From positions 1-42,269 of IMG/VR virus record IMGVR_UViG_3300008448_010914: 42,269 nucleotides of DNA; one strand, given 5' to 3'. The stretch comes from a virus. Positions 2,823 through 41,228 of this stretch are shown here, piece after piece (positions within the stretch are counted from its first letter, which is position 1; the number at the start of each line of letters is the position of its first letter). The notes under the pieces were generated by a model. That model worked only from the letters and a program-made list of their open reading frames with translations, had not been told where the DNA came from and ran no database searches. A program made the translations under genes and the position numbers.

Positions 2823-3007
2823 GACTTGAACTGTTGAGTTAGTTTAAGTTGATCTATGGTCTCCTGAATGAGAAGCTTTGAGTACTTGTCAAACTCGTTA
2901 TCATAATTGCAACTCCAATCAATCATTGAATTGTTTGCATTCCATTGCTCATCCTCCCAAAAGACGAACCCAGCCTGCTTTGCAAGTTTTTCATAAACAT
3001 TGTTCAC
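2813..3007 (-). CDS. Small conserved-type phage protein (64 aa)
   Basis: The product contains FDKYSKLLIQETIDQL, resembling the many small phage proteins ending in FAELIVRECA-type helices, whose function is unknown. The start is a GTG at 3007, overlapping the last 17 bases of the upstream oxygenase gene; there is no usable in-frame ATG. Its stop in turn overlaps the 35-residue gene at 2822. No membrane segment. Confidence 0.6.
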   Translation of the reverse strand: MNNVYEKLAKQAGFVFWEDEQWNANNSMIDWSCNYDNEFDKYSKLLIQETIDQLKLTQQFKSCE

Positions 3008-3569
3008 TAAATTTACCTCTTTTGTTTACAGTGTAATAATTAGTATTGAAACCAATAACAGTTTTAGTGGAAGTAGAGATATTAGGTTTAGAGCAGTGTT
3101 GTACAAAAGAAGGGAAAGTGATGATACTACCTTCTTCTATTTCAATATCAACTTCTTTACCCATAATGTTTAAACAAGTTTTAGAATTTTTTTCACTCAT
3201 TTCAACATAGTAAACATTTGTAAACATACATTCTGGGTGTACATGCCAATCATGGTAGTCACCAGTTTCATATTGTTGAAACCAACCACTATTGATAATC
3301 ATAGGAGAGGAGCCAAAATAATTAGATATCAATTTGTTATGATTTTCAAATGCTTGCATTACTAATGAACCATAAGGCCTTGCAATATCTTTAGGCAGAT
3401 ACCAATCGGTGTTAGAAATACTTTGAAATTTTTCAAAGCATCCATGTTTTCCCATTTCAATGATTTTTTTCAATATTTGTGGCTTGATAATTAAATGGTC
3501 CTCCACCTTACTAACCATGATTGGAAAAGCTTGATCTACAACGAATAAATTGTTAGAGGCATTATTCAT
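2991..3569 (-). CDS. Putative 2OG-Fe(II) oxygenase (192 aa)
   Basis: The iron site reads YHDWHVHPECMFTNVYYVE (His-X-His type) with a later FVQHCSKPN giving the third ligand and a TVIGFNTNYY strand. This is the layout of the putative 2OG-Fe(II) oxygenases of PF13759, common in marine and freshwater T4-like phages. The enzyme would be cytoplasmic with an unknown substrate. The start overlaps the stop of the upstream gene as ATGA, so translation is coupled. Confidence 0.75.
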   Translation of the reverse strand: MNNASNNLFVVDQAFPIMVSKVEDHLIIKPQILKKIIEMGKHGCFEKFQSISNTDWYLPKDIARPYGSLVMQAFENHNKLISNYFGSSPMIINSGWFQQYETGDYHDWHVHPECMFTNVYYVEMSEKNSKTCLNIMGKEVDIEIEEGSIITFPSFVQHCSKPNISTSTKTVIGFNTNYYTVNKRGKFSEQCL

Positions 3570-10227: not shown

Positions 10228-11088
10228 TTAAAAATCGTTGATACTCTCTATTAATGTTTTGAGCTTGTGCTTAACAAAATAATTAAATAACTTATCTCTA
10301 GGCTTATCCTGTTGAGAGTTATACTGTTCTATTACTGCTTCGGAAATTGTCTTGGGAGTAAATGTAAGATCAATGAGAGAATTGTTTCTCATAAAATTAG
10401 CTCGGATCTCTGGATCATATGTGGAAGGATCAACTGCAAGGAGCTCAGCCATCTTCTTTGCGGTAAGTGGCTTTTGTCTAATGCCTTCGATGAGGCAGTT
10501 GTCAGGCGACAAAACGTTTGGAATACCATCCCCACGATCGCCTTTAAGGACTAACTCTTTCAAGAACTGTGCAGGATCTTTGCAAGTGATGTTCTTTTTG
10601 TGAATAGGATCATACTGGCTAACATTTACATACGACTGCAACTGAACAAAGTCCTTATCGCCAGACAAAATAAGAATCTTTTCAGCTGATGAACTATTTA
10701 GCGGTACACCAAATTCTGCAACAAGGCTACCAATCACATCATCTGCCTCAGCTCCATCAACCTGAATGATAGGATAAGGAAAGTAATCTTTCAGATCTTG
10801 TTTGATTGTATTAAGGGTGTTGAATAGATTTGTCCAATCGATCTCAGACTTCTCTCTATCCTTCTTACGGTTACCTTTGTAAGCTGGAAACTGTTCACGT
10901 CTCCAATACTTCTTATCATCACAAGCAATGACAAGCTGACCATAACTTTTATATTTGGTCTTTAGGTTACGGATAGAGTTAAGAACCATGTGGCGAACAA
11001 GGTTCTCTTCAATCTCTACATTGGTATGATTACCAAGTTGCTGAAGAACATTGGAAATCATTATTTGGTTTAGGTCTAGTATAATCAT
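10228..11088 (-). CDS. rnh: T4 Rnh-like 5'-3' exonuclease / RNase H, FEN family (286 aa)
   Basis: The PIN/FEN signature is complete: IILDLNQ at the start (first Asp), GAEADDVIGSLVAEF and LSGDKDFVQLQ in the middle (metal-binding Asp clusters), then GDRGDGIPNVLSPDN (helix-hairpin-helix and last Asp pair). In T4 this enzyme removes RNA primers from lagging-strand fragments. I start at the ATG 11088, which begins the conserved core; a TTG 24 bases upstream would only add residues overlapping nothing useful. Length fits the T4 protein (about 305). Confidence 0.88.
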   Translation of the reverse strand: MIILDLNQIMISNVLQQLGNHTNVEIEENLVRHMVLNSIRNLKTKYKSYGQLVIACDDKKYWRREQFPAYKGNRKKDREKSEIDWTNLFNTLNTIKQDLKDYFPYPIIQVDGAEADDVIGSLVAEFGVPLNSSSAEKILILSGDKDFVQLQSYVNVSQYDPIHKKNITCKDPAQFLKELVLKGDRGDGIPNVLSPDNCLIEGIRQKPLTAKKMAELLAVDPSTYDPEIRANFMRNNSLIDLTFTPKTISEAVIEQYNSQQDKPRDKLFNYFVKHKLKTLIESINDF

Positions 11089-11104
11089 AACATATTGTAG
11101 CACA

Positions 11105-11392
11105 CTACACAATTTTAATCAACTGATCAGTAACGTCCTGTAGTTCATGTTTAATGTTCATTGTACGGAATACACCACTCTTAATAGCTTCTAACACCAT
11201 CCCAATGTCTTTCTCATCCTGGATGTAAAAGTTAAACGATCCTAGATGGTTTAGAAGGTCTGGTACAACTTCATCAAGAGCTGTCTCCACTGCTTCTCTT
11301 TGGTTCTCATCTATTTTAGATATAACTTCTTCTAGAGACTGAGGAGCAGTCTCTAGTTTATCTTTAGGAAAGAAAAGGACTTTATTGCTCAT
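11105..11392 (-). CDS. Unknown acidic phage protein (95 aa)
   Basis: No family is recognised. It is an acidic helical protein (SLEEVISKIDENQREAVETA) with no membrane segment. Its ATG overlaps the stop of the phosphoheptose isomerase gene, so it is co-translated with the end of the sugar operon, while the Rnh-like gene follows 16 bases later. It may belong functionally to either neighbour. Confidence 0.6.
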   Translation of the reverse strand: MSNKVLFFPKDKLETAPQSLEEVISKIDENQREAVETALDEVVPDLLNHLGSFNFYIQDEKDIGMVLEAIKSGVFRTMNIKHELQDVTDQLIKIV

Positions 11393-11991
11393 AACTTCAA
11401 TTCATGTTTATCGTCTCTAGCAAGGAAATGCTTAGTACGAATAGATTGAGCAATAGAATGCATGAGGATCTGATGACAATCCTCAACAATACCGTAGTTA
11501 TGTGAGGGAACGTATACAACATAATCAGCCATCTCATAGTCCATTACATAACCACCATCAAACCCAACAAACGCCATTGTCTCCAAACCCTTTTGACTAG
11601 CAGTACGGAGACCTTTAACAATGTTCTTGGAGTTACCACTAGCAGAGATAGCAATTGCTAATCCACGATTGTTGGGGAATGCTTCAATCTGTTTAGAGAA
11701 GATTTCATCATAACTGTAATCGTTTGCAATGGCTGTAATCAAAGCCATGTTAGAAGCTAAGCTGATAATGTTTGAATGCAAAGGAGTATCGTGCCTTACT
11801 CCTTTAGTATGGTCACACGAGAAGTGTTCGGACAAGGCAGCTGAACCTCCATTACCGAACACATAGATTGGTGCCTGCTCTTTGGCATACATTTCAATTA
11901 CTCGATGAGCTTGACTGATACTAGCTCTATCAATCTTACTCAATGCTTCTGTTACACCTGATGCATACACATCAAAGAAAGCCGAACTCAT
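11389..11991 (-). CDS. gmhA: SIS-domain phosphoheptose isomerase (200 aa)
   Basis: FGNGGSAALSEHFSCDHTKG is the sugar-phosphate-binding signature of GmhA, and SASGNSKNIVKGL and NYGIVEDCHQ supply the second loop and the active-site His/Glu region. GmhA converts sedoheptulose 7-phosphate to D-glycero-D-manno-heptose 7-phosphate, the first step to activated heptoses. Length is that of GmhA (about 190-200). It overlaps the kinase gene by four bases. Because the kinase is next to it, a heptose rather than another ketose is the likely product, though substrate specificity is inferred. Confidence 0.82.
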   Translation of the reverse strand: MSSAFFDVYASGVTEALSKIDRASISQAHRVIEMYAKEQAPIYVFGNGGSAALSEHFSCDHTKGVRHDTPLHSNIISLASNMALITAIANDYSYDEIFSKQIEAFPNNRGLAIAISASGNSKNIVKGLRTASQKGLETMAFVGFDGGYVMDYEMADYVVYVPSHNYGIVEDCHQILMHSIAQSIRTKHFLARDDKHELKL

Positions 11992-12962
11992 TTATTCATC
12001 TCCACAACACTACCTTGATTGGTAAAATTAAAATCAAATATATCATAGTTACTTAGGGCTTTGATAACCCTAGCATGGCTCTTAGGAGGAACATACATTA
12101 ACAAGTAACCTCCACCACCAGCACCCAAAATCTTACCACCCAAAGCACCTGCTTTCATTGCACTACTATACATTTCATCTATTGTAGGGTTAGAAATGTT
12201 ATCAGACAACCTCTTTTTGATATCCCATGATTCACCCAACAGCGAACCAAAGTCGTCTAGTTGTCCTTTGAGGAGGAACTTAAACGCGTCCTCCGCCATA
12301 GCAACCATATTAGCAGTATTATCCACGTTAACCACATTTTTAAGTCCCTTCACTTGCTTTTCTAAAACAGATGAGGCTTGTCTCGTGATCCCTGTATTAA
12401 AACAAATAAGATTATCATTCAAACGAGAGGCTGCGTCTGTTGTTATATTGACTGGAATAACAGCCACATCGTCACCTTCAAACGTAATAGCATTGAATCC
12501 ACCGAATGCTGCTGCGTATTGATCTTGTTTACCAATTGGTTGCTTGCACTTATCTATCTCGATGTGGCAAGCTAGCTCAGCTAGTTCATAATTGTTGTAT
12601 TGAGTTCTGGACATCTCAAGGATTGCCTTTAACAAACCAACAGTGAAGGTAGAAGACGATCCTAGTCCTGTTCCTTTTGTAGGGATGTCAGAGAATGAAG
12701 CAATCTCTATGTGATTGTTAATACCGTAGTATTGCAATACTTCTCTTACACGATCATGCTTAAGCTGAGATGAATAATCAACAATTTCAATCTCCGAGTA
12801 CATAACTTTTGTATGTGGTGTACGTGTTCCATTAGCAGCAATGTAGATTGGTCTATCAATAGTTGTTGATATAACCAATCCTCGATTGTTCTTATAAAAC
12901 TGAGGAATGTCACTTCCTCCTCCAAAGAAGCTAACCCTCAGAGGTGTCTTTGTAATAATCAT
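11988..12962 (-). CDS. hddA: GHMP kinase, D-glycero-D-manno-heptose 7-phosphate kinase type (324 aa)
   Basis: GHMP kinase motifs are present: TPLRVSFFGGGSDIP near the start, the ATP-binding GTGLGSSSTFTVG near residue 95-107, and GGKILGAGGGGYLLMYV near 273-289. The overall pattern matches the HddA family (dehydrogenase/kinase group of sugar kinases), which puts a phosphate on C1 of heptose 7-phosphate. Length 324 is close to HddA (about 340). Coupled by overlap to the isomerase and the glycosyltransferase. Confidence 0.8.
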   Translation of the reverse strand: MIITKTPLRVSFFGGGSDIPQFYKNNRGLVISTTIDRPIYIAANGTRTPHTKVMYSEIEIVDYSSQLKHDRVREVLQYYGINNHIEIASFSDIPTKGTGLGSSSTFTVGLLKAILEMSRTQYNNYELAELACHIEIDKCKQPIGKQDQYAAAFGGFNAITFEGDDVAVIPVNITTDAASRLNDNLICFNTGITRQASSVLEKQVKGLKNVVNVDNTANMVAMAEDAFKFLLKGQLDDFGSLLGESWDIKKRLSDNISNPTIDEMYSSAMKAGALGGKILGAGGGGYLLMYVPPKSHARVIKALSNYDIFDFNFTNQGSVVEMNK

Positions 12963-13954
12963 TTTACTTTATAGTGAAACATCGGACCATCATCTTTAGG
13001 AGGCTTGCGATTCTCTTCAGGATAACGAGCTTTCAACGAGTTTAACACATCTTCCCATTGACCAGAGATCTTACTCCAGTTGTATCTGCTATCAGCATAC
13101 ATCTTAACAAACTTTAAGTAGTTCTGCATATCATCGTTGTTAACAACTTCAATGGCATGATCCAAAGCATGGTAGAACTTATTGACGTGCACTTGAGGAT
13201 CTTGATCCCATTGGTATTGGAATGTCAATCCACCAGCAGTATCAGACAAACCAGCTAGGTTAGGATGAACACACATCAGTCCAGCACTCATTGCCTCAAT
13301 AACGCTGCGACTGTTGCACTCAGACCAAATAGAAGGATAAGCAAGGATGTGGCTTTTCTGTAAATGACTACGTACAGTGTCATTATCAGCGAATCCATGA
13401 TAAGTGACTTTCGGATGGTTTTTAAGTTTTTCAAACAAGCTAGCATATCGCTTATCAGCTTCATCCCAACCGTAAATTGCAAAACTAGAAAAAACATCAA
13501 GGTGGATGTTGTCATACTTTTCACATAGCTTCTCAAAAACAGGATATAACAGTTCCAACCCACGTTGCGGGGTTGATGTATAGATCAACCGAATTTCTTC
13601 CTTAGACTTAGGAATAAGCGGGATAGGATCGATTGGAGTCTCGATCACAACACACTTATCATCTTGAGGAATACCTAACTTGGTGATGTACTGATTGTAT
13701 TGCCAATGGCCACAGAATACTAATTTGTGGAAACGGTCACGACTAGACTCATCCTTCAAGTGACTAGTTTCTGGATCTTCTGGTAAGTCGTGTAACCAGT
13801 AAACACGAATCTTATCTTCTTCGATCTTACGAACACGTGAGCAGATCACCTGAAAGTCATCAGCTAGTCCTTCCGGTAGACGTTCTGCCAGTCCACGCTT
13901 AACCATTTCAGTCCCACCTTTGGACTTAATCGAAATTTCATTCTCTTCAAACAT
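12959..13954 (-). CDS. Glycosyltransferase, GT4-like (331 aa)
   Basis: The C-terminal half has the GT-B fold signature: LIYTSTPQRGLELLYPVFEKL (donor domain start), HGFADNDTVRSHLQKSHILAYPS, and ECNSRSVIEAMSAGLMCV, the E-x7-E motif of GT4 retaining enzymes. The N-terminal part is short, with SKGGTEMVKRGLAERLP as acceptor-side loop. It probably transfers the sugar made by the neighbouring enzymes onto a phage or host target in the cytoplasm. It overlaps both neighbours in the operon. Confidence 0.8.
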   Translation of the reverse strand: MFEENEISIKSKGGTEMVKRGLAERLPEGLADDFQVICSRVRKIEEDKIRVYWLHDLPEDPETSHLKDESSRDRFHKLVFCGHWQYNQYITKLGIPQDDKCVVIETPIDPIPLIPKSKEEIRLIYTSTPQRGLELLYPVFEKLCEKYDNIHLDVFSSFAIYGWDEADKRYASLFEKLKNHPKVTYHGFADNDTVRSHLQKSHILAYPSIWSECNSRSVIEAMSAGLMCVHPNLAGLSDTAGGLTFQYQWDQDPQVHVNKFYHALDHAIEVVNNDDMQNYLKFVKMYADSRYNWSKISGQWEDVLNSLKARYPEENRKPPKDDGPMFHYKVK

Positions 13955-14882
13955 TTAACTTCCTTGCTTCAATAGCATCATTAATCATATCTTCAATCAG
14001 ATGGTGTTGGTATACGAATCCTGTATCTTCCCTGAACTTATCAGGATTAGCAACAAGATAAGCTGGATCGCCTTGACGCTTATCAACAAAGTCATACTGA
14101 CGATGTCCAGTTACATGATAGTACTTCTCAACCATCTCCAATACTGATGTACCAACTCCCAATCCTAGATTGTAAGGACGGTATCCTGGTTGTTTAATTG
14201 ATTCGTAAGCATGAATCATTGCACGGCAAATGTCAACAACGTGGACATAATCTCTAACACAGGTACCATCCGGTGTATCGTACAGTTCACCATAGATCTT
14301 GAAGTTGACTTTATCTTTATGAGCCTGGATCAGTCTGCTGATTATATGAGGAGTGTTATCTTGAATTCCAACATCCCCATAGCTTCCTGCTACATTGAAG
14401 AACCGAAAACACGTTATAGGCGTGTTAAACACGTTACAATACGCTTCAATCACCTGCTCACTCATCCACTTACTGAGTCCGTAGTTGTTAGGTGAGTCTT
14501 TGTGGAAGTCTTCTTTAATCGGAGTCTTATTGTAGTTAGGAGCATAGACAGCAGCGCTGCTTGCATAGACAACCCTAGGCATCTTATGACCTTGTCCTAA
14601 TTTTACTAACATCTTGGAAGTATTACCAACATTGTTGACAAAGTAACTCATTGGATCATAAGCACTAGGACCCAGAAGACTATTAGCTGCTAAGTGAAAG
14701 ATGCCATCTACTTCATGAGGAGTATATTGTGAGAAACATATGCTAAGGTCTTCATCAGCATATTCAGACTTTTTGCTGTAATCAGTGTCCATACCAATGA
14801 CATAGTATCCTTGTTCTCTTAACATCTTACAGAGAGCTGATCCAATGTAACCTCGATGACCAGTAACTAAAATCTTTTTCAT
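13947..14882 (-). CDS. NAD-dependent nucleotide-sugar epimerase, GalE-like (311 aa)
   Basis: An SDR enzyme with the Rossmann motif GHRGYIGS (residues 8-15), the ASSAAVY catalytic Ser strand, the YGLSK Tyr-x3-Lys pair, FRFFNVAG, and GTCVRDYVHVVDIC typical of UDP-glucose 4-epimerases. It interconverts C4 epimers of a UDP- or other nucleotide sugar. GalE proper is about 338 residues; 311 suggests a shortened C-terminus and possibly a different sugar. It is central in the sugar operon, overlapping both neighbours. Confidence 0.8.
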   Translation of the reverse strand: MKKILVTGHRGYIGSALCKMLREQGYYVIGMDTDYSKKSEYADEDLSICFSQYTPHEVDGIFHLAANSLLGPSAYDPMSYFVNNVGNTSKMLVKLGQGHKMPRVVYASSAAVYAPNYNKTPIKEDFHKDSPNNYGLSKWMSEQVIEAYCNVFNTPITCFRFFNVAGSYGDVGIQDNTPHIISRLIQAHKDKVNFKIYGELYDTPDGTCVRDYVHVVDICRAMIHAYESIKQPGYRPYNLGLGVGTSVLEMVEKYYHVTGHRQYDFVDKRQGDPAYLVANPDKFREDTGFVYQHHLIEDMINDAIEARKLNV

Positions 14883-15406
14883 TTTTTAGTGTATCCTAAG
14901 TCAATAGCTGATGTACCATTGAGACCATTATAAAATGCTGAAGGATGCAATGGAAGATCAGAAATGTTAATTGATCCTGTTTTAGGTTTACTGTTTTCAA
15001 TAGTGGATGCGATCACTCTACTTCTCAAATCTGAAGTGCTGAAGCTGTGCATCCGAGAGTTAAAAACAATGGGGTGGACATCAAGATGTCTACCAGTAAA
15101 GTCTTTATCTTTGTGATCCTCACCAACAAACCTAACACTGATTGGAAGTGTCTTTAGAAGGTCCAATAGATCTGCTTCAGTGTTGTATACAATTACATCA
15201 TCAATGTACCTAATTGCATGCAATTGGATTTGACGTTCAACAATAGATTGAACAGGCTTATTCTTTTCGGGACGATCAATTGAAGGATCATTCTGCAGTC
15301 CTACAATTAGATGATCACATTGGTTTTTTACTTCTTCAAACATTAACATATGACCAGCATGACATAGGTCAAATGTACCGCAAGTAAATCCAATCTTATA
15401 TTTCAT
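14879..15406 (-). CDS. Cytidylyltransferase-family nucleotidyltransferase, TagD/RfaE2-like (175 aa)
   Basis: GFTCGTFDLCHAGHMLMFEE carries the HxGH catalytic motif, ERQIQLHAIRYIDDVI the middle region, RFVGEDHKDKDFTG a TagD-like loop, and FSTSDLRSR the ISSTxxR-type motif. The family activates a sugar phosphate or glycerol phosphate with CTP or ATP. Beside GmhA and HddA homologues it would plausibly make an NDP-heptose. No dedicated GmhB-type phosphatase is present in the operon. The ATG at 15406 (after AGGTGAG) is preferred to the GTG at 15415. The last 40 residues are an unmatched extension. Confidence 0.78.
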   Translation of the reverse strand: MKYKIGFTCGTFDLCHAGHMLMFEEVKNQCDHLIVGLQNDPSIDRPEKNKPVQSIVERQIQLHAIRYIDDVIVYNTEADLLDLLKTLPISVRFVGEDHKDKDFTGRHLDVHPIVFNSRMHSFSTSDLRSRVIASTIENSKPKTGSINISDLPLHPSAFYNGLNGTSAIDLGYTKK

Positions 15407-15407
15407 A

Positions 15408-15680
15408 TCACTCACCTAGACTAAAATTAACATAAATTAACGAGGAAATTTTGAATGATCTCCACTCCCCTTTATCTATATCCCAACAAGGAACGATGTC
15501 TAGGTTTTGTACTTTAACCTTTTCTGTCTTCCTCTCATAGGGAACTGCAATGTCTTCTCTCAACGTGCAATTCATAGTACGTTCAGTACCATCACTTTTA
15601 GTAAAAATGACTTGAACCTTATTGGTTTTCAATACACCAATAAGCCAGTCGTGAGTAGTTTTATCTGCTGTCAAAGACAT
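15408..15680 (-). CDS. WYL_2 / DUF2693-like small SH3-barrel protein (90 aa)
   Basis: KVQVIFTKSDGTERTMNCTL is the hallmark of the small Sm/SH3-like proteins grouped as DUF2693 (WYL_2), common in T4-like phages; they are thought to be nucleic-acid or ligand binders, with no firm function. The frame is open for 14 more codons upstream, but those codons lie in the terminator hairpin at 15695-15718, and GGAGA precedes the ATG at 15680, so I start there. Confidence 0.72.
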   Translation of the reverse strand: MSLTADKTTHDWLIGVLKTNKVQVIFTKSDGTERTMNCTLREDIAVPYERKTEKVKVQNLDIVPCWDIDKGEWRSFKISSLIYVNFSLGE

Positions 15681-15694
15681 TACGTTTCTCCAAT

Positions 15695-15718
15695 AAAAAA
15701 GGGACCGAAGTCCCTTTA
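15695..15718 (-). terminator. Rho-independent terminator with UUCG loop
   Basis: Read on the - strand: AAAGGGAC-TTCG-GTCCCTTT followed by TTTTA. A 7-8 bp stem, an extra-stable UUCG tetraloop and a U-run make a textbook intrinsic terminator. It lies 21 bp after the HTH-type gene (15739-15993) and 15 bp before the WYL_2 gene, so the two are separate transcription units. Confidence 0.88.
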
Positions 15719-15738
15719 TCATAAGCCGTCCAAATTAA

Positions 15739-24398: not shown

Positions 24399-24983
24399 TT
24401 ATTTAAAAGGGGGTCCAGAAAACCAACCAACAAGAGCTTCTCTCATCCCATTAATAACAGGCTTCACTTCATGTATTGTAAAGGAAGGAAAAATAGTTAT
24501 AGATCCTTTATTTTTGTTTGCTGTAATAGAATGTTCAAGAGAGTGGCAATATATTAAAACGTCTCCCCCTTGATACTCCGTTGGATCACTTAACTGAATA
24601 GAAAATGAAAGTTTACGGTGGAGGCCTTTATCAGGCGCCATATCTATATGCTGACCAAAAGTACCACCTGGACTATGATAAACGGTATACTGCAACGGCT
24701 CTGCACTATTCAAATCATAGTGAAAAAAACTTTCATTTACTGATGTAACACATTTATGAATTTTTGTGAAAAGCCAACTTATTTCAGGATTAATATGCAA
24801 CCATTTAACTTCACACTCTCTCAATGTAATAGATATATCTTGTTCAGATACTAATCTACCAACTTGGCCAAGTGTTTTACCAGGTTCAATTGGAAGAGAG
24901 ATAGCATGATGTTTTATTTTTTTTATTTCCTCATCAGAAAAAAAGTCATTAAAGGTATAAAATTGTATGTAATCCTTGACCAT
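24399..24983 (-). CDS. 2OG-Fe(II) oxygenase, PiuC/P4Hc type (194 aa)
   Basis: GGTFGQHIDMAPDKG (His-X-Asp), LSFSIQLSDPTEYQGGDVLI, TIFPSFTIHEVKPVINGMRE (third His and Arg) and ALVGWFSGP match the PiuC-like group of Fe(II)/2OG hydroxylases that occurs in many aquatic T4-like phages. The substrate in phages is unknown. ATG 24983 has AAAAGGG seven bases before it; the ATG at 25004, which overlaps the upstream stop, is the alternative. Confidence 0.85.
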   Translation of the reverse strand: MVKDYIQFYTFNDFFSDEEIKKIKHHAISLPIEPGKTLGQVGRLVSEQDISITLRECEVKWLHINPEISWLFTKIHKCVTSVNESFFHYDLNSAEPLQYTVYHSPGGTFGQHIDMAPDKGLHRKLSFSIQLSDPTEYQGGDVLIYCHSLEHSITANKNKGSITIFPSFTIHEVKPVINGMREALVGWFSGPPFK

Positions 24984-24996
24984 TATTGAACCCTTT

Positions 24997-25191
24997 TCAA
25001 TCATTAGTTCCCATCACCCAATCTTCACATGCATCCCCAGCATCACTCTCGCTTGTAAAGATTGTTTGACCTCTTTCAGCCTTACCACCATCTTGTTCAA
25101 GTTGGATTTCGTATCCTTTAGGAGTTAGCAGCACCTTTGCTTCTCTACCATTATTGTCTCCGAAGTATTCTTTTATTAACATCGTCTTCAT
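24997..25191 (-). CDS. Small acidic phage protein (64 aa)
   Basis: No family is recognised. The product (MKTMLIKEYFGDNNGREAKV ... AGDACEDWVMGTND) looks like a small beta-rich protein with an acidic C-terminal helix, of a type common in T4-like phages. The ATG at 25191 forms ATGA with the primase stop, so it is translated with primase. Confidence 0.65.
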   Translation of the reverse strand: MKTMLIKEYFGDNNGREAKVLLTPKGYEIQLEQDGGKAERGQTIFTSESDAGDACEDWVMGTND

Positions 25192-27249: not shown

Positions 27250-27975
27250 TTATTTTTCTCCCAATTTTTCTAACTTAGCGACATAGTTTGTCATCATGTG
27301 ATCAAACACACCAATAAACTTTTGTCCTTTTGCTCTGGCCTTCAGTCTGCTTCGAGCCATGTCTTTTACTCGCTGCCATGGAGTTAGATCTCTAAACTCA
27401 CCGTAGAAGTTCATGTACTTGTGTGTCCCGTGATGTCTGAATCCCATTAGTCTAAAAGGAACTTTAGTTACATCATCGCAGTTGTTCTGTACTCTATAAT
27501 GTTCTACGGTCAGGCTCTTAACAAACTCTGCATCACCAACTCTAGGTGAGCCAAAAGTTATCAAGGCTCTGACTTTGGATTGTACTCTACTAGCAGCAAC
27601 AGTTGCCATAGCTGCTCCTAAGCTGTGACCTGTTATGTAAAGAATGTCAATATTAGCAATTGCTTTTTCTATTGCAGGCCATACTTTGTTGATCTCGCCT
27701 TTGAATCCTACGTGCACCTTACCACCACAGGCTTCAATGTTCTTGCCAGCTTTTAAGTCAGCTAGAACATCAGACTTCTGCGATACTTCAGTACCTCTGA
27801 AACTTAAAACGTGGATACCATTCATGTCTTTTAACAAGTATGCTTGCGCACCTTCTATATCAAAAAACTCAACAACATTGAATCCAAAAGATTTAAACTT
27901 GGTTTTAGATTCTTTTGGATTATCGTATGTGATTGTAGCTAAGTTAGCAAACAACAATAATTGACTTGTTTCCAT
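27250..27975 (-). CDS. Class 3 lipase, alpha/beta hydrolase (241 aa)
   Basis: Nucleophile Ser118 in ITGHSLGAAMA, then FGSPRVGD (about 141-148), NNCDDVTKVP (Asp near 167) and HHGTHKYMNF (His near 185) give the catalytic triad of the class 3 lipase family. VLSFRGTEVSQKSD supplies the oxyanion region. There is no signal peptide, so it could act on membrane lipids after holin opening or be inside the virion. It lies between holin and nuclease in the lysis block. Confidence 0.82.
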   Translation of the reverse strand: METSQLLLFANLATITYDNPKESKTKFKSFGFNVVEFFDIEGAQAYLLKDMNGIHVLSFRGTEVSQKSDVLADLKAGKNIEACGGKVHVGFKGEINKVWPAIEKAIANIDILYITGHSLGAAMATVAASRVQSKVRALITFGSPRVGDAEFVKSLTVEHYRVQNNCDDVTKVPFRLMGFRHHGTHKYMNFYGEFRDLTPWQRVKDMARSRLKARAKGQKFIGVFDHMMTNYVAKLEKLGEK

Positions 27976-27984
27976 TTTTATCCT

Positions 27985-28416
27985 TTAACACCAAGATGTT
28001 TTAGCTTCGCCGTAATATTCACGAGCAAAACCCTGAGCAATTAGTTGTTGACGAAGGCTTTTGCCATCTAAAATGACATCACCTAGTACACGACCACCGT
28101 ACTTGTCCCAATCCATCAAAATAATTTGACGTTTAGTAGAAGCATTGATTAATTGTTTAGTGAAAGCAGTGGCTGCTTCACCACGCGCAGCTTCACTTGG
28201 ACATTTAGCTCTAAAGCTCTTCTCAGGTGTATCCACACCAAAGACACGAATAGATAACTCTTTCTTTAGAGGGTCAGGTAACCAATTAGCTTGGAAAGCA
28301 ACTGTGTCTCCATCGACCACTCTGGTGAGGACAACTTCATATGTCACACCAGCTTTTTCTTTTTGAGCCAAAGCAAAGCAAGGAAGCAATGCTAGAATCA
28401 ATAAAAACTTCTTCAT
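27985..28416 (-). CDS. Exported thermonuclease-type nuclease (143 aa)
   Basis: MKKFLLILALLPCFALAQ is a signal peptide cut near residue 17. The mature part shows RVVDGDTV, RVFGVDTPEK (Asp, Arg, Glu of the SNase active site) and DWDKYGGRVLGDVIL, so the SNase/thermonuclease core is intact. It would work in the periplasm or outside. Length 143 is typical. It overlaps the endolysin by one base. Confidence 0.85.
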   Translation of the reverse strand: MKKFLLILALLPCFALAQKEKAGVTYEVVLTRVVDGDTVAFQANWLPDPLKKELSIRVFGVDTPEKSFRAKCPSEAARGEAATAFTKQLINASTKRQIILMDWDKYGGRVLGDVILDGKSLRQQLIAQGFAREYYGEAKTSWC

Positions 28417-37291: not shown

Positions 37292-37413
37292 TTTTGTTAG
37301 TGTCCCACTTATGTTCTAGCAGTTGGCGTGCTGCTATGTAGTAGGCAGGGACTCTCCTTTTACCACTTATAACGCAAAGGTCCTAAGGTAGTGGTAAGTT
37401 TATAAACTTTCAT
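37269..37413 (-). CDS. Probable +1-frameshifted small gene (17 codons, then 30 codons in the next frame)
   Basis: The ATG (37413-37411) shares a base with the fibre stop (TAATG). Frame 0 reads [17 protein letters not shown] and stops at TAA (37362-37360). Skipping one base, the +1 frame reads KRRVPAYYIAARQLLEHKW and eleven more residues to TGA 37271-37269, with no ATG, GTG or TTG of its own, so it could only be reached by frameshifting, read-through in error, or a recent one-base change. Both halves look protein-like and fill an otherwise empty 121-bp gap. AAAAGGAGAG follows the stop. Confidence 0.5.
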
Positions 37414-39347
37414 TATGCTGGCCTCAACATGCAACCGTTGAACCAGGTGATTGACGGATTGTTTACAGCTGTGAGGTCTCTATTGGCACCAGCACCGTGC
37501 TGGACCGCAATTTCAAAATAATCACCAGTCCCGTTAGCATAAACAACAGAACTGACCTGCATTGCCCACCAATCATCTATAGTCAAAGCAACGCCTCTCG
37601 AATTCCACCCACGCTTGTATTCAGAACCATTCTTCCAAATTACAATCATCATCTCACCAGTACCACTTCCATTACTGAAACGCACCTCAGCATTGAGCTG
37701 ATAGTAACCTGCAACAGTTGGAGTGAAGCGAGAGTTAGCGTAATTGCTATTTGTGTCGAATTCTTCAGCCTGGAACAAAACTTTGGTTTGTGTATCGGTA
37801 GGAATCGTTTGCTGGACTCCCTGAGCATAAGCACTGAAGGCTGGACCTAGTGAGACGGTTCCTGTGGCTCCTTGAGCTCCCTGTACGCCTTGATAACCTT
37901 GAGCTCCCTGCACACCTTGAGCACCTTGGCTACCTACCGAACCCTGTACACCTTGATATCCTTGTGGACCTACTTGTGTATATGTTACCTGTGTCAAAGT
38001 TGCAATGACGGAAGGGATTGCTGGATGACCACCGTTCGCAGCGATGTGTTCAATAAAAATGTTGGCATTATCTGACATCCAATAGATTTCCAAATAATCA
38101 TTTGGACTTAGTGAATAAACCCAATTCCAAGCTGCAACAATATAAGGACTATTTGTATTAACAATTACCTTTGTTGCTGAATCAGCAAGATCCGCACCAT
38201 TCTTTCTTAACCAAATATCTACAGTAATTCCATTCCCGCCCCCACCAGAGTTATACAGCTGAGCAGAAAATTGAAGATTGTACACGCCACCGTAAGCTAC
38301 TGTGATTTGGGAATTAGAAACAATTGAAACATTGGTAGCTTCATCTGTCACACGCAACAGCATTGGTGTTGGTGTATCTTCAAGACTAACTGCCTGATCA
38401 ATACTATCGTGGAAGGCACCGTAATTTGCAATAGTTCCACCAGCACCAGTTTGACCGGTTGAACCCTGCACTCCTTGTGCACCCTGAACACCCTGTGCTC
38501 CCTGAACGCCTTGACTACCTACTGAACCCTGGGCACCTGTAGAGCCTTGAACACCTTGTGCTCCTTGAGCACCTGTAGAACCTTGAACACCCTGGGCTCC
38601 TTGTACACCTTGTGATCCAGAACCGGTAGCACCTTGAACACCCTGGGCTCCTGTAGATCCTTGGACGCCTTGAAAACCCTGAGCTCCGACAGCTCCTTGA
38701 ACTCCTTGAGCACCTTGAACTCCTTGATAACCTTGATAACCTTGAGCACCAGTTCCACCACCGCCTGTTGCATCAGCATTGATCCACTTACCAGTAGCTT
38801 CATCATAAGTCAACACTTGAGTGTCTGTAGGATTAGTTATCCTCACATCGTCCTGGTCACGCAACCTAACAGCACCACCGCCACCCATTTGTGAGTGACG
38901 TTGTGCAAATCTATGGAAGTCTGTGATTGACTTCTTAATGTAATCGAGCTCTTTACGCAATGAAGGAGGAACAATGTCTTCTTTCTTTGGCTTTTCTTTT
39001 GCAATCTTTTCTACAGCTGGTGTTGCAAACACTGATGCTGGGATTTCTGGCTCTTCCTGTTTAGCATCTTCAACCAATTGTTCTTTTGCTTCTTCAAGTT
39101 CTTTGCTAACTTGTTCAATAATTGCTTGCTGCTCAGCTACTTGATACTTGGATAGAGTAACACTCATGTTCTCTATCAGCTGGTCTTCTTTCTTCTTGAT
39201 ATCTTCTAAGATATCCTCAGCGCCCAAAGACTTAGAGAGGCTGGCAAGCATCCTCTCTTCTTTCAATCTCTTTTGTTCCAACTCCTCAAAGGTGCTCTCT
39301 GCACCCAAGATCTTTGCGAAGTTAGCTAAAAACTTTTTCTCATCCAT
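37413..39347 (-). CDS. Collagen-like tail fibre with C1q/TNF-like heads (644 aa)
   Basis: Residues 1-110 are a charged coiled coil with an internal duplication ([17 protein letters not shown] and [17 protein letters not shown]). Residues about 197-299 and 458-497 are Gly-X-Gln collagen-like repeats ([16 protein letters not shown]) with almost no Pro. Between and after them are two beta-rich globular domains (about 300-455 and 500-644) of C1q type, with [15 protein letters not shown] and [13 protein letters not shown] strands. This is a trimeric fibre or appendage likely to bind a surface. It overlaps its upstream neighbour by eight bases. Confidence 0.82.
37857..37972 (-). repeat. Second collagen-like Gly-X-Gln repeat tract
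   Basis: A shorter run of nine-base units encoding Gly-X-Gln triplets inside the fibre gene, near residues 458-497. Units are not identical at DNA level but strongly alike, so slippage or recombination with the first tract is possible. Confidence 0.75.
38450..38752 (-). repeat. First collagen-like Gly-X-Gln repeat tract
   Basis: About 34 triplets encoding Gly-X-Gln with Ala, Val, Tyr, Phe, Ser or Thr in X, in the fibre gene (residues about 199-299). Third-base variation keeps repeat units distinguishable. Pro is almost absent, unlike animal collagen. Confidence 0.8.
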
Positions 39348-41163
39348 GCTTAAAGAATTTCATAAACGATAACGATTCAGTCAGACCCATTCCCTTGCGC
39401 ACATCATTGTACATCTCTTTGGAGTGCTTCTCTGGTACGTGATGTGGAACACCTTTTTTAAATTCAGCAAAGTTGCCCTTCTTAGCATGCTCACGCATCT
39501 TAGAAGCAGACATTCCTTCTGTACCTTCAGCATCAGGATCTCTCTCACCAGAAGATTGTACATCAACCTTATCGAAATTAAAATGACCGTGGGCTGCTTT
39601 GACACCGTTATACTTATGGATCAGCTTTTTATATTCATCTACGCGATCCGAGCCAGCAACCATTGTAACGTGTTTGTAACCTTGCTCATGCAATTTAGCT
39701 AGGTGGTGCAAGAATGTAGGAGCTTCTTTTGTTGCAGCTTCAGTAGGAGTGTTTGGAAAAAAGTTCTTAACATGCTTCAACTTTTGTGCTGCCGTCAATG
39801 GGTTCTTAGCAGAGTCCTGTGAGTGAGAAACAACCAGCTTAACATCGCCACCTTTATCTTTTGCAACATCATGCATCTTCTGAACCACTTTCTCGTGGCC
39901 AGTTGTAGGTGGGTTCATTCTACCAAAAGCAAACGTAACGTGCTTGTTTGCAGTCTCTGGTTTTTTCTCAGCAGCTTGCTTAGCATTCTTAGACTTTAAA
40001 GCATTCAGTCTGTTAAACTCTTCACGGTCATTCAACTTAGAAGGACGGTTGTTAACAGATATCACAGTGCCTTCTGTCTTAACAGGAGTATCACCAACAT
40101 GAGTCTCAAACTTAGCTGACTGGTTGAAGTTCTTAACAAGCATGTTCTTAGCTTTGACTAAGTGCTTGTGTGTTTCAATCAATGCATCAAAGTGAGCTTT
40201 GTGCGTATCGACGTGCTTCATAGCAACATTGTGTTGAGCAAGCTTAGCAGCCTTAACAGCTGGTGTCTTTACTTTGTCAATTTCTTTCTTAGCCTTGTCA
40301 GTAGACCACTTCTTGTATCCTTCTGTTGTTGGGCTTCCTTGAGCATTGATTGTCTGGTTGAGGTAGGACTTAAAAGTGGCATGGTGCTTTTCAACTTCCG
40401 CAGGTGGTTCGTGATTAACACTCTTATAAGCATTGTCGGCTTTCTTCAATTCGTTTTGGAACTTGGTTTGCTCAGCTGGTGTATACTTCTTAGGATCAAT
40501 GTGCTGACCAGGAAGGATAGCATGAACGTCGTGATGCTCTGATAAGTCACTCAGATCAGGATTGTACTCTGCTTTAAGATCCTCAAAGTTCTTGCCTTTG
40601 TATCTTGTGTGAATAGCAACACCAAACTTGGCTTTGGTAATCTTCTTACCTTCTTCACTGTTCTTGTCAGTGGAGTATGTGATTGTGTTAGGAGTGAAGT
40701 GGTGCTTGTTACCTTTAGTAGTCACATCGCTGTTCTTACCTTCTTTGGTGTACATCACATCACCCTGATAGATCTCACCCTTGGATGATTTCTTCTTAGG
40801 CATAATCTTAGGAAGGTGCTTAAGAGATGACTTTAACTTAGCAACTAAACCAGGAGCATGTCCGTGGTTCTTTTCAATATCAGCTTCTGTGTAATTGATC
40901 TTTGGATTTGCATTAAAAGCAGACTTGGATGCAACAAAGAATCTACCTGTTTCAGGATGATGTCCAAATACAATAGAAGGAGAGCCGTCATACTTCTCAG
41001 ACGTCTTAGCTTCCGTTTCCTTACCAGACAGGACATGATGAGCCTGCATTAAGGAATTAACAGCGTGATGGTAGCCAGCATAGCCAGCATTCAGCATGTG
41101 ATCTTCTGGGTGCTCTAAATGGGTTAGTTTTGATTCGTCTGCGGCTTCTGTAATGCTTCTCAT
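39340..41163 (-). CDS. Fusion of KxDG ligase-like and NMN adenylyltransferase-like domains (607 aa)
   Basis: N-terminal domain: [16 protein letters not shown] (residue about 57 as the candidate nucleotide-accepting Lys) with [10 protein letters not shown] and [15 protein letters not shown], which look like motifs I, III and IV of covalent nucleotidyltransferases (DNA/RNA ligases). C-terminal domain (from about 409): [17 protein letters not shown] with the HxGH-type TTGH and later [16 protein letters not shown], typical of NMN adenylyltransferase-type enzymes. Related fusions in T4-like phages are grouped as DUF6267, as I recall. I use ATG 41163 as start (homologue-like MRSITEA, new promoter); 41226 would add 21 residues. 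Confidence 0.72.
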
Positions 41164-41170
41164 ATAGCCT

Positions 41171-41199
41171 ATTATACCCGAAATCCCCGAGTTGGTCAA
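41171..41199 (-). promoter_or_regulatory. sigma70-type promoter, leaderless type
   Basis: TTGACC (41199-41194), 17 bp, TATAAT (41176-41171), near-perfect on the - strand. The start point would fall near 41164, on or one base before the preferred ATG at 41163, giving a leaderless message. It lies inside the extra 21 codons of the longer frame. Confidence 0.55.
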
Positions 41200-41228
41200 T
41201 ATAGCACTTTCTAGTTGGTTTATCATAA

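Follow-up and report, generated by a model that had tools for sequence, protein, structure and literature searches.

The window analysed here, the whole 42,269-base IMG/VR virus record IMGVR_UViG_3300008448_010914, carries an operon that we believe, with a probability of roughly 0.7, synthesizes a nucleotide-activated heptose, which a GT4 glycosyltransferase (GT) of the same operon then transfers. Read along the minus strand, its genes encode a TagD/RfaE2-type nucleotidyltransferase (NTase; 14879–15406, 175 aa), a GalE-type UDP-sugar 4-epimerase (13947–14882, 311 aa), a GT4 enzyme of the GT-B, EX7E type (12959–13954, 331 aa), an HddA/WcbL-type GHMP kinase (11988–12962, 324 aa) and a GmhA-type phosphoheptose isomerase (11389–11991, 200 aa), with overlaps of 4, 8, 4 and 4 bases between successive genes. 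A first-pass annotation made from the letters alone had placed five genes overlapping by 4–8 bases at 11389–15406 and named their products GmhA-, HddA-, GT4-, GalE- and TagD/RfaE2-like; all five open reading frames (ORFs) are there, and the Pfam matches of all five proteins lie above the curated cut-offs. Runs without a stop codon reach 331 codons in the stretch; in 200 mononucleotide shuffles, they reached 221 at most (mean 102). The sequence itself shows the genes and the order in which they stand, the conservation of their catalytic residues and their linkage across phages.

From family membership and conserved residues, we infer the substrates, nucleotide and product as follows. GmhA would convert sedoheptulose 7-phosphate to heptose 7-phosphate, and HddA would phosphorylate C1 to give heptose 1,7-bisphosphate, as the alpha anomer that the available text of PMC4691232 reports for the HddA/WcbL kinase class. 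The 7-phosphate would then be removed, by host GmhB in the case of the window and, for one third of the related phages, by a GmhB-like enzyme of their own, leaving heptose 1-phosphate, to which the NTase would add CMP (or AMP or UMP) to form a nucleoside diphosphate (NDP)-heptose. GT4 would transfer the heptose, and its retaining type would agree with a donor in the alpha form. GalE may supply or edit a 4-epimer, either UDP-galactose or a heptose C4 epimer, and the methyltransferases found in relatives probably decorate the sugar.

The five operon enzymes

On sequence comparison, HddA is the best assigned of the operon proteins and is predicted to be a heptose-7-phosphate 1-kinase. It matches the N- and C-terminal GHMP kinase domains of Pfam (4.1e-14 and 3.9e-10) and scores 185 bits with the HddA model NF049969 (equivalog cut-off 600), the next-best model reaching 85 bits. 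Its best solved relatives, PDB 3k85 (5.5e-47) and WcbL (4usm, 5.3e-46), are heptose kinases. Residues R9, D18, S102–S104, Q146 and D147 align to R13, D22, S118–S120, Q162 and D163 of WcbL, mutation of which abolished heptokinase activity according to the available text of PMC4691232; these seven residues are invariant in the five phage sequences compared.

GmhA matches SIS_2 (1.1e-15) and PDB 5by2 (8e-28), and its best family is TIGR00441, at 107.2 bits (below the cut-off of 209.45). Alignment to E. coli GmhA places the metal ligands at H56, D60, E170 and H178, and this H-D-E-H variant is present in 54/54 viral and 67/69 hddA-linked bacterial sequences compared.

The NTase is a predicted heptose-1-phosphate nucleotidyl (probably cytidylyl) transferase. 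It matches Pfam CTP_transf_like (PF01467, 1.2e-13) and phrog_7878 (114 bits), with an HxGH motif beginning at residue 16 and RMHSFSTS at residue 118. By sequence, it scores higher with the RfaE2 model (TIGR02199 rfaE_dom_II, 63.8 bits, below the cut-off of 181.5) than with that of the glycerol-3-phosphate cytidylyltransferase TagD (TIGR01518, 52.1 bits, below 165.4). The structural model, with a low-confidence C-terminal tail (residues 156–175), is that of a short cytidylyltransferase-superfamily enzyme, with Z scores of 16.8 to TagD (1coz) and 15.3 to HldC (5xf2); as a fold neighbour, TagD ties with Fom1 and with a Thermoplasma protein named for lipopolysaccharide (LPS) core biosynthesis, and HldC lies 1.5 Z lower. 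The arginine at the first residue of the TagD motif RTEGIST is kept in all 44 phage NTases compared. In the same 44 enzymes, F, W or Y replaces the arginine of STTR5, a promiscuity motif defined as (F/L)XXGRSTT in the available part of PMC11573728, and the published motif was found neither in these enzymes nor in the window NTase. The nearest folds (TagD and Fom1), together with the conserved arginine, favour CTP as the probable co-substrate. The superfamily implied by the TagD/RfaE2-like label of the first-pass annotation is borne out; a close kinship to RfaE2 is not, since STTR5 is missing and the nearest folds are cytidylyltransferases, and the enzyme is not HddC. The window also encodes a 628-aa protein (39340–41226, minus strand) that joins a DUF6267 part to a cytidyltransferase-like part and may be a second phage nucleotidyltransferase.

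GT4, the predicted heptosyltransferase, matches Glycos_transf_1 (PF00534, 5.3e-12) and, also above the cut-off, PF13692. Of its EX7E glutamates, E212 is invariant and E220 is present in at least 90% of 27 sequences. The model has a GT-B fold (predicted local distance difference test score 90.8) and gives a Z of 27.3 to HepE, a tie with PimA and BshA; these three neighbours and sucrose-phosphate synthase all lie within one Z unit. GalE matches the Pfam Epimerase family (4.7e-41) and scores 226.7 bits with TIGR01179, somewhat below the cut-off of 262.3. Its S109, Y134, K138 and N163 align to S124, Y149, K153 and N179 of E. coli GalE, and R210, R269 and D272 to R231, R292 and D295, residues that we take to be the catalytic S/T-Y-K set and the UDP-binding positions; it differs from the E. 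coli enzyme at N199 (here H) and Y299 (here L).

Conservation of the locus across phages

Alignments identified 597 confirmed relatives of GT and 273 of HddA in viral contigs, of which the best 80 of each were used. Among the resulting 152 loci (L002–L010 and L027–L169, some contigs being represented twice) and the window, 81 loci span the WYL_2 gene, GT and RNase H, and these form 56 clusters at 95% GT identity in which these three genes are present by definition. HddA and GmhA are both found in 52/56 clusters, and the NTase in 44/56 (43/52 of those with HddA and GmhA). Because some loci had been fetched with HddA itself, we recounted the loci fetched by GT alone, which form 35 clusters, 31 with HddA and GmhA and 25 with the NTase. 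HddA directly follows GT in 48 of the 52 loci. Closest to the window is a second record, L002, in which the stretch from WYL_2 to RNase H is letter-for-letter identical; the order of GalE, GT4, HddA and GmhA is kept in L003–L006 at 85–94% identity, whereas the NTases of L004 and L005 are just 47% identical to that of the window.

The remaining genes vary. GalE is optional in the locus and alternates with a GmhB-like phosphatase of the HAD type, partly through clade structure. The epimerase is present in 23/56 clusters, 22 of them among the 52 with HddA and GmhA, where it precedes GT in 20/22; the GmhB-like protein is found in 20 of the 52, always before GT (20/20). The two never occur together (0/52; Fisher test, 2.6e-7), and 10/52 have neither. 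Mapping the GalE, GmhB or neither states on the GT tree requires six changes, against 25.9 in shuffles, so that clades explain much of the exclusion and the Fisher figure overstates it. The GmhB-like protein keeps the DxDG, TN, KP and GD motifs and scores best with heptose-bisphosphate and histidinol phosphatase models, below their cut-offs. That GmhB is absent from the window, as the first-pass annotation had noted, agrees with our finding no match there.

A transaldolase gene is present in 11/56 loci, all 11 among the 20 that bear GmhB, in the order NTase-GmhA-GmhB-transaldolase-GT-HddA; it scores 258 bits with TIGR02134 (cut-off 282). Sedoheptulose 7-phosphate, the substrate of GmhA, is both made and used by transaldolase. 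The GmhB-like phosphatase and transaldolase in the operons of relatives lend independent support to a pathway starting from sedoheptulose 7-phosphate. With isomerase, C1 kinase and NTase in the window and these two enzymes added in relatives, the NDP-heptose route proposed in the first-pass annotation is upheld as a prediction. GmhA was compared for ten of the eleven loci with transaldolase: it shares 53–58% identity with its counterparts in bacterial hdd clusters and 25–32% with other phage GmhA. The isomerase gene was replaced and the step retained.

Methyltransferases are found in 19 of the 52 loci, with NanM and FkbM types identified by NCBIfam matches; the labels TylF-like and MT23 come from our own reading of the sequences and one weak UbiG match. 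A small protein present in 32/56 clusters (for example L128:4653–5036), and absent from the window, is presumably an S-adenosylmethionine decarboxylase (SpeD), a name that we assume. A protein of 355–390 aa, phrog_11903, is encoded beside GT or beside GmhA in a number of T4-like phages (L007:6419–7591, Cr30 gp005 and phiM12 gp314).

Sixteen whole records, chosen for holding GT, extend the comparison beyond the locus. HddA is present in 12/16, and strong NTase matches (164–226 bits) occur in 11 of these 12 and in 0/4 HddA-negative records (Fisher test, 0.003), three of which have weak partial matches of 16–26 bits in longer frames. In G002, G005 and Cr30, the NTase lies far from HddA; the NTase tracks HddA even when unlinked.

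Several observations weigh against the heptose reading. Loci fetched by similarity are biased to the type of the window, and all five operon proteins score below NCBIfam equivalog cut-offs. The GmhA metal site is H-D-E-H where E. coli has H-E-Q-H. GmhB was found neither in the window nor in 9 of the 12 HddA-positive records (3/12 have it), and G004 has HddA with no NTase match. HddA is missing from 4/56 locus clusters, and in phiM12 and RHph_I1_18 relatives of GT4 adjoin RNase H without HddA; GT may therefore use another donor. The low scores, and metal ligands that differ from those of E. coli, would also suit enzymes with heptose names merely inherited from annotation: an isomerase with a SIS domain and a GHMP kinase whose substrate is the phosphate of a hexose or deoxy-sugar. 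GHMP kinases for fucose and galactose do score with the kinase. We regard this as quite unlikely: HddA is by far the top model and heptose kinases are the best solved relatives, the residues essential by mutation in WcbL are retained, the operons of relatives additionally hold genes for a GmhB-like enzyme and transaldolase, and bacterial loci pair the H-D-E-H form of GmhA with HddA, GmhB and transaldolase. A heptose pathway ending in a dedicated GT4 remains the reading we prefer.

The conserved borders of the locus are a WYL_2 (DUF2693) protein on the left (15408–15722, minus strand; PF10902, 4.5e-14) and a T4-like RNase H on the right (10228–11112, minus strand; PF09293, 2.3e-16; phrog_107, 1.6e-54). 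Directly before RNase H lies a gene for a small conserved protein of 95 aa (11105–11392, minus strand), with relatives in 50/56 clusters, that overlaps GmhA by 4 bases and in turn meets RNase H. The operon is therefore longer than first described: the five genes stand, while the limits move, the transcription unit also taking in the WYL_2 gene before them and the 95-aa gene and RNase H after them. A terminator-like hairpin upstream of the operon (15698–15717, minus strand), with an 8-pair stem, a UUCG-type loop and a T-run, is only suggestive, since the region holds eight terminator-like sites against 3.9 expected. The promoter scan returned 26 sites against 21.8 expected and gave no signal.

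The record is classed as linear and is thus possibly a fragment. The window is marked as that of a T4-like phage by RNase H, PhoH, a RuvC-like resolvase, the two subunits of ribonucleotide reductase, ThyX and a primase of the T4 kind. The primase is nearest to those of the Sinorhizobium phages phiN3 and phiM12 (48–49% identity), and megablast of 25 kb of the window against phage records gave no match.

Candidate acceptors of the sugar

Our best guess for the acceptor, held tentatively and at less than even odds, is a host envelope glycan or a lipid-linked precursor; a small molecule is unlikely. Because the fold neighbours of GT4 are tied across lipid, small-molecule and polysaccharide transferases, the fold does not choose among acceptors. 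That sugar modification serves to block superinfection is a guess.

The operon might be an ordinary LPS-type auxiliary patch that uses two or more sugars (heptose and GalE-derived galactose) to alter the host O-chain. The rfaE gene and glycosyltransferases of pelagimyophages and cyanophages are read as O-chain modification in the available text of PMC7029224, and the Synechococcus phages SynMITS9220M01 and Bellamy carry HddA-like genes in larger sugar clusters. We give this explanation a low chance. GT4 (PF13692) has one match in 14 of the 16 whole records and two in G004 (one below the cut-off) and G008; GT2 (PF00535) has none above the cut-off and three below it in the 16, other transferase families not being sought and a second sugar transferase being annotated in DLP6. 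One GT4 and no GT2 above the cut-off in most records suggests a single sugar transfer and not a polysaccharide cluster. The locus also sits beside RNase H (by definition in the 56 clusters) and not in a tail-fibre hypervariable region.

One GT4 per record in 14/16, which suits a single-sugar modification, and the position of the locus among replication genes (RNase H, PhoH, ribonucleotide reductase and primase) would fit a heptose or its epimer placed on the phage's own DNA bases, in the manner of T4 glucose, against restriction and other DNA-targeting defence. In two of ten operon-bearing IMG/VR records, G003 (L257:2016–2666) and G002 (L258:2194–2850), both from phages carrying the heptose locus, a PF00303 protein of 216–218 aa adjoins a dCMP-deaminase-like ORF; an N-to-D change seen by eye would, we assume, make it a possible dCMP hydroxymethylase. 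Tet_JBP domains occur in Cr30 (59353–60681, annotated as an SNF2 DNA repair protein), DLP6 (27833–28279) and G006 (113512–113961). Set against these, PF00303 was not found in 8/10 operon-bearing IMG/VR records (including those of 163, 151, 149 and 141 kb) nor Tet_JBP in 9/10, though the records may be incomplete, and hence no known base hydroxyl handle was found there. Both searches left out the window, whose sole recognised thymidylate synthase is ThyX. The few hydroxymethylase and Tet_JBP matches weaken DNA as the acceptor, which we consider improbable. The 50 fold matches listed for GT4 include no T4 DNA glucosyltransferase, which excludes nothing.

GT4 may alternatively glycosylate a virion or other phage protein, which we judge somewhat unlikely. 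Protein heptosylation from NDP-heptose is known in bacteria, according to the available part of PMC11573728, and the protein O-GlcNAc transferases SdgB and GtfA are among the GT4 fold neighbours, where they are tied with the lipid, small-molecule and polysaccharide transferases and thus give no choice. A tail fibre of 644 aa in the window (37413–39347, minus strand) has three collagen-like G-X-Y runs (16, 20 and 13 repeats) with some Thr. Collagen-like sequence is O-glycosylated in some bacteria. In the tail fibre, Y is mostly Gln, and Lys and Pro are absent from the commonest residues listed. No acceptor gene lies consistently beside GT, phrog_11903 being present in 10/56 loci, with no copy in the operon of the window. 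The window also encodes three 2-oxoglutarate-Fe(II) oxygenase-like proteins (2056–2706, 2991–3569 and 24399–25004, minus strand), which had raised the idea of hydroxylysine-linked glycosylation of the collagen-like fibre; we rejected it given the Gln at most Y positions.

Comparison with known heptose pathways

With these results, a set of look-alike sugar genes can be treated as one defined locus, widespread among phages, whose product can be tested; its core is common to dozens of distinct related phages. Should the operon make and transfer a heptose as proposed, viruses would have a use for nucleotide-activated heptose, the viral role of which the available text of published accounts calls unsolved, and the operon would point to a glycosylation target in T4-like phages; transaldolase may then serve sugar synthesis in phages besides the pentose phosphate route.

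The bacterial GDP-heptose pathway (GmhA-HddA-GmhB-HddC), as in the Burkholderia pseudomallei WcbL cluster, Aneurinibacillus and Campylobacter, has an isomerase of the kind predicted here and a GHMP-type C1 kinase, and a GmhB-like phosphatase occurs likewise in phage relatives. We examined the 80 bacterial loci best by HddA similarity, counting neighbours on the same strand within 5 kb (short contigs may hide some). The best bacterial HddA, from Roseomonas, is 42% identical by tblastn, and the 80 loci hold GmhA in 64, a GmhB-like protein in 49, transaldolase in 48 and an HddC-like protein (by pattern) in 44. An NTase of the phage type lies beside hddA in 0/80, where phage loci have the TagD/RfaE2-type enzyme instead of HddC, with which HddA is usually paired; one phmmer query (E 1e-5) found no HddC-like protein in the 152 viral loci, with matches confined to two gut-phage records. 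These unannotated human gut phage records, L015 (MT835644) and L016 (MT835828), hold genes resembling those for HddA, GmhA and HddC, in part within long fused frames. On this comparison, the phages have retained the bacterial front end and swapped the nucleotidyltransferase.

This pairing of an HddA-type kinase with a cytidylyltransferase-like NTase was not seen in the 80 bacterial loci. In its most specific form, the proposal would be a hybrid route in which the alpha-type HddA kinase feeds a cytidylyltransferase-like enzyme, the resulting CDP-heptose being used by a single retaining GT4 to mark one phage or host target with a (methylated) heptose. We think this full sequence of steps unlikely to hold in every part; if it did, CDP-heptose, the role of which is called elusive in the available text of PMC11573728, would gain a first physiological use, and phages would have a new glycosylation mark. 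A search of the open-licence PMC literature found, among the papers listed, no account of this locus and none pairing CDP-heptose with a bacteriophage.

The ADP-heptose pathway of the LPS core (GmhA-HldE-GmhB-HldD) shares the predicted GmhA step and an NTase of the RfaE2 superfamily, whereas the phage has a GHMP kinase in place of the PfkB-type HldE kinase and no HldD, and RMHSFSTS where E. coli HldE has FEDGCSTT. TagD, a CTP:glycerol-3-phosphate cytidylyltransferase, has the same fold as the phage NTase (Z 16.8) and the same RTEGIST arginine, at 30% identity.

Viral heptose enzymes are already published. According to the available text of a commentary (PMC11461863) and an authors' note (PMC11573728) on Tang et al. 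(2024), viruses carry a heptose isomerase, kinase and nucleotidyltransferase but not the phosphatase, heptose enzymes combined from each kingdom yielded ADP-heptose, and what these enzymes do in viruses is called unsolved. The reported viral set of isomerase, kinase and NTase without a phosphatase resembles that predicted for the window; the phage NTases differ in lacking STTR5, and the GmhB-like protein in 20/52 phage loci contrasts with the reported viral absence. The available text makes no mention of such genes being linked to a dedicated GT4, to GalE or to transaldolase.

A cultured counterpart is the Caulobacter crescentus phage Cr30, in which gp006–gp010 include an epimerase, GT (49% identity), HddA (39%) and GmhA (42%) in the same order as in the window. 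Its epimerase is just 33% identical, extra small genes lie between, and the NTase (gp178, 53% identical) is not adjacent as in the window: counted across the ends of the record, it lies some 6 kb off. With relatives of all five genes in a cultured phage, Cr30 makes the question testable.

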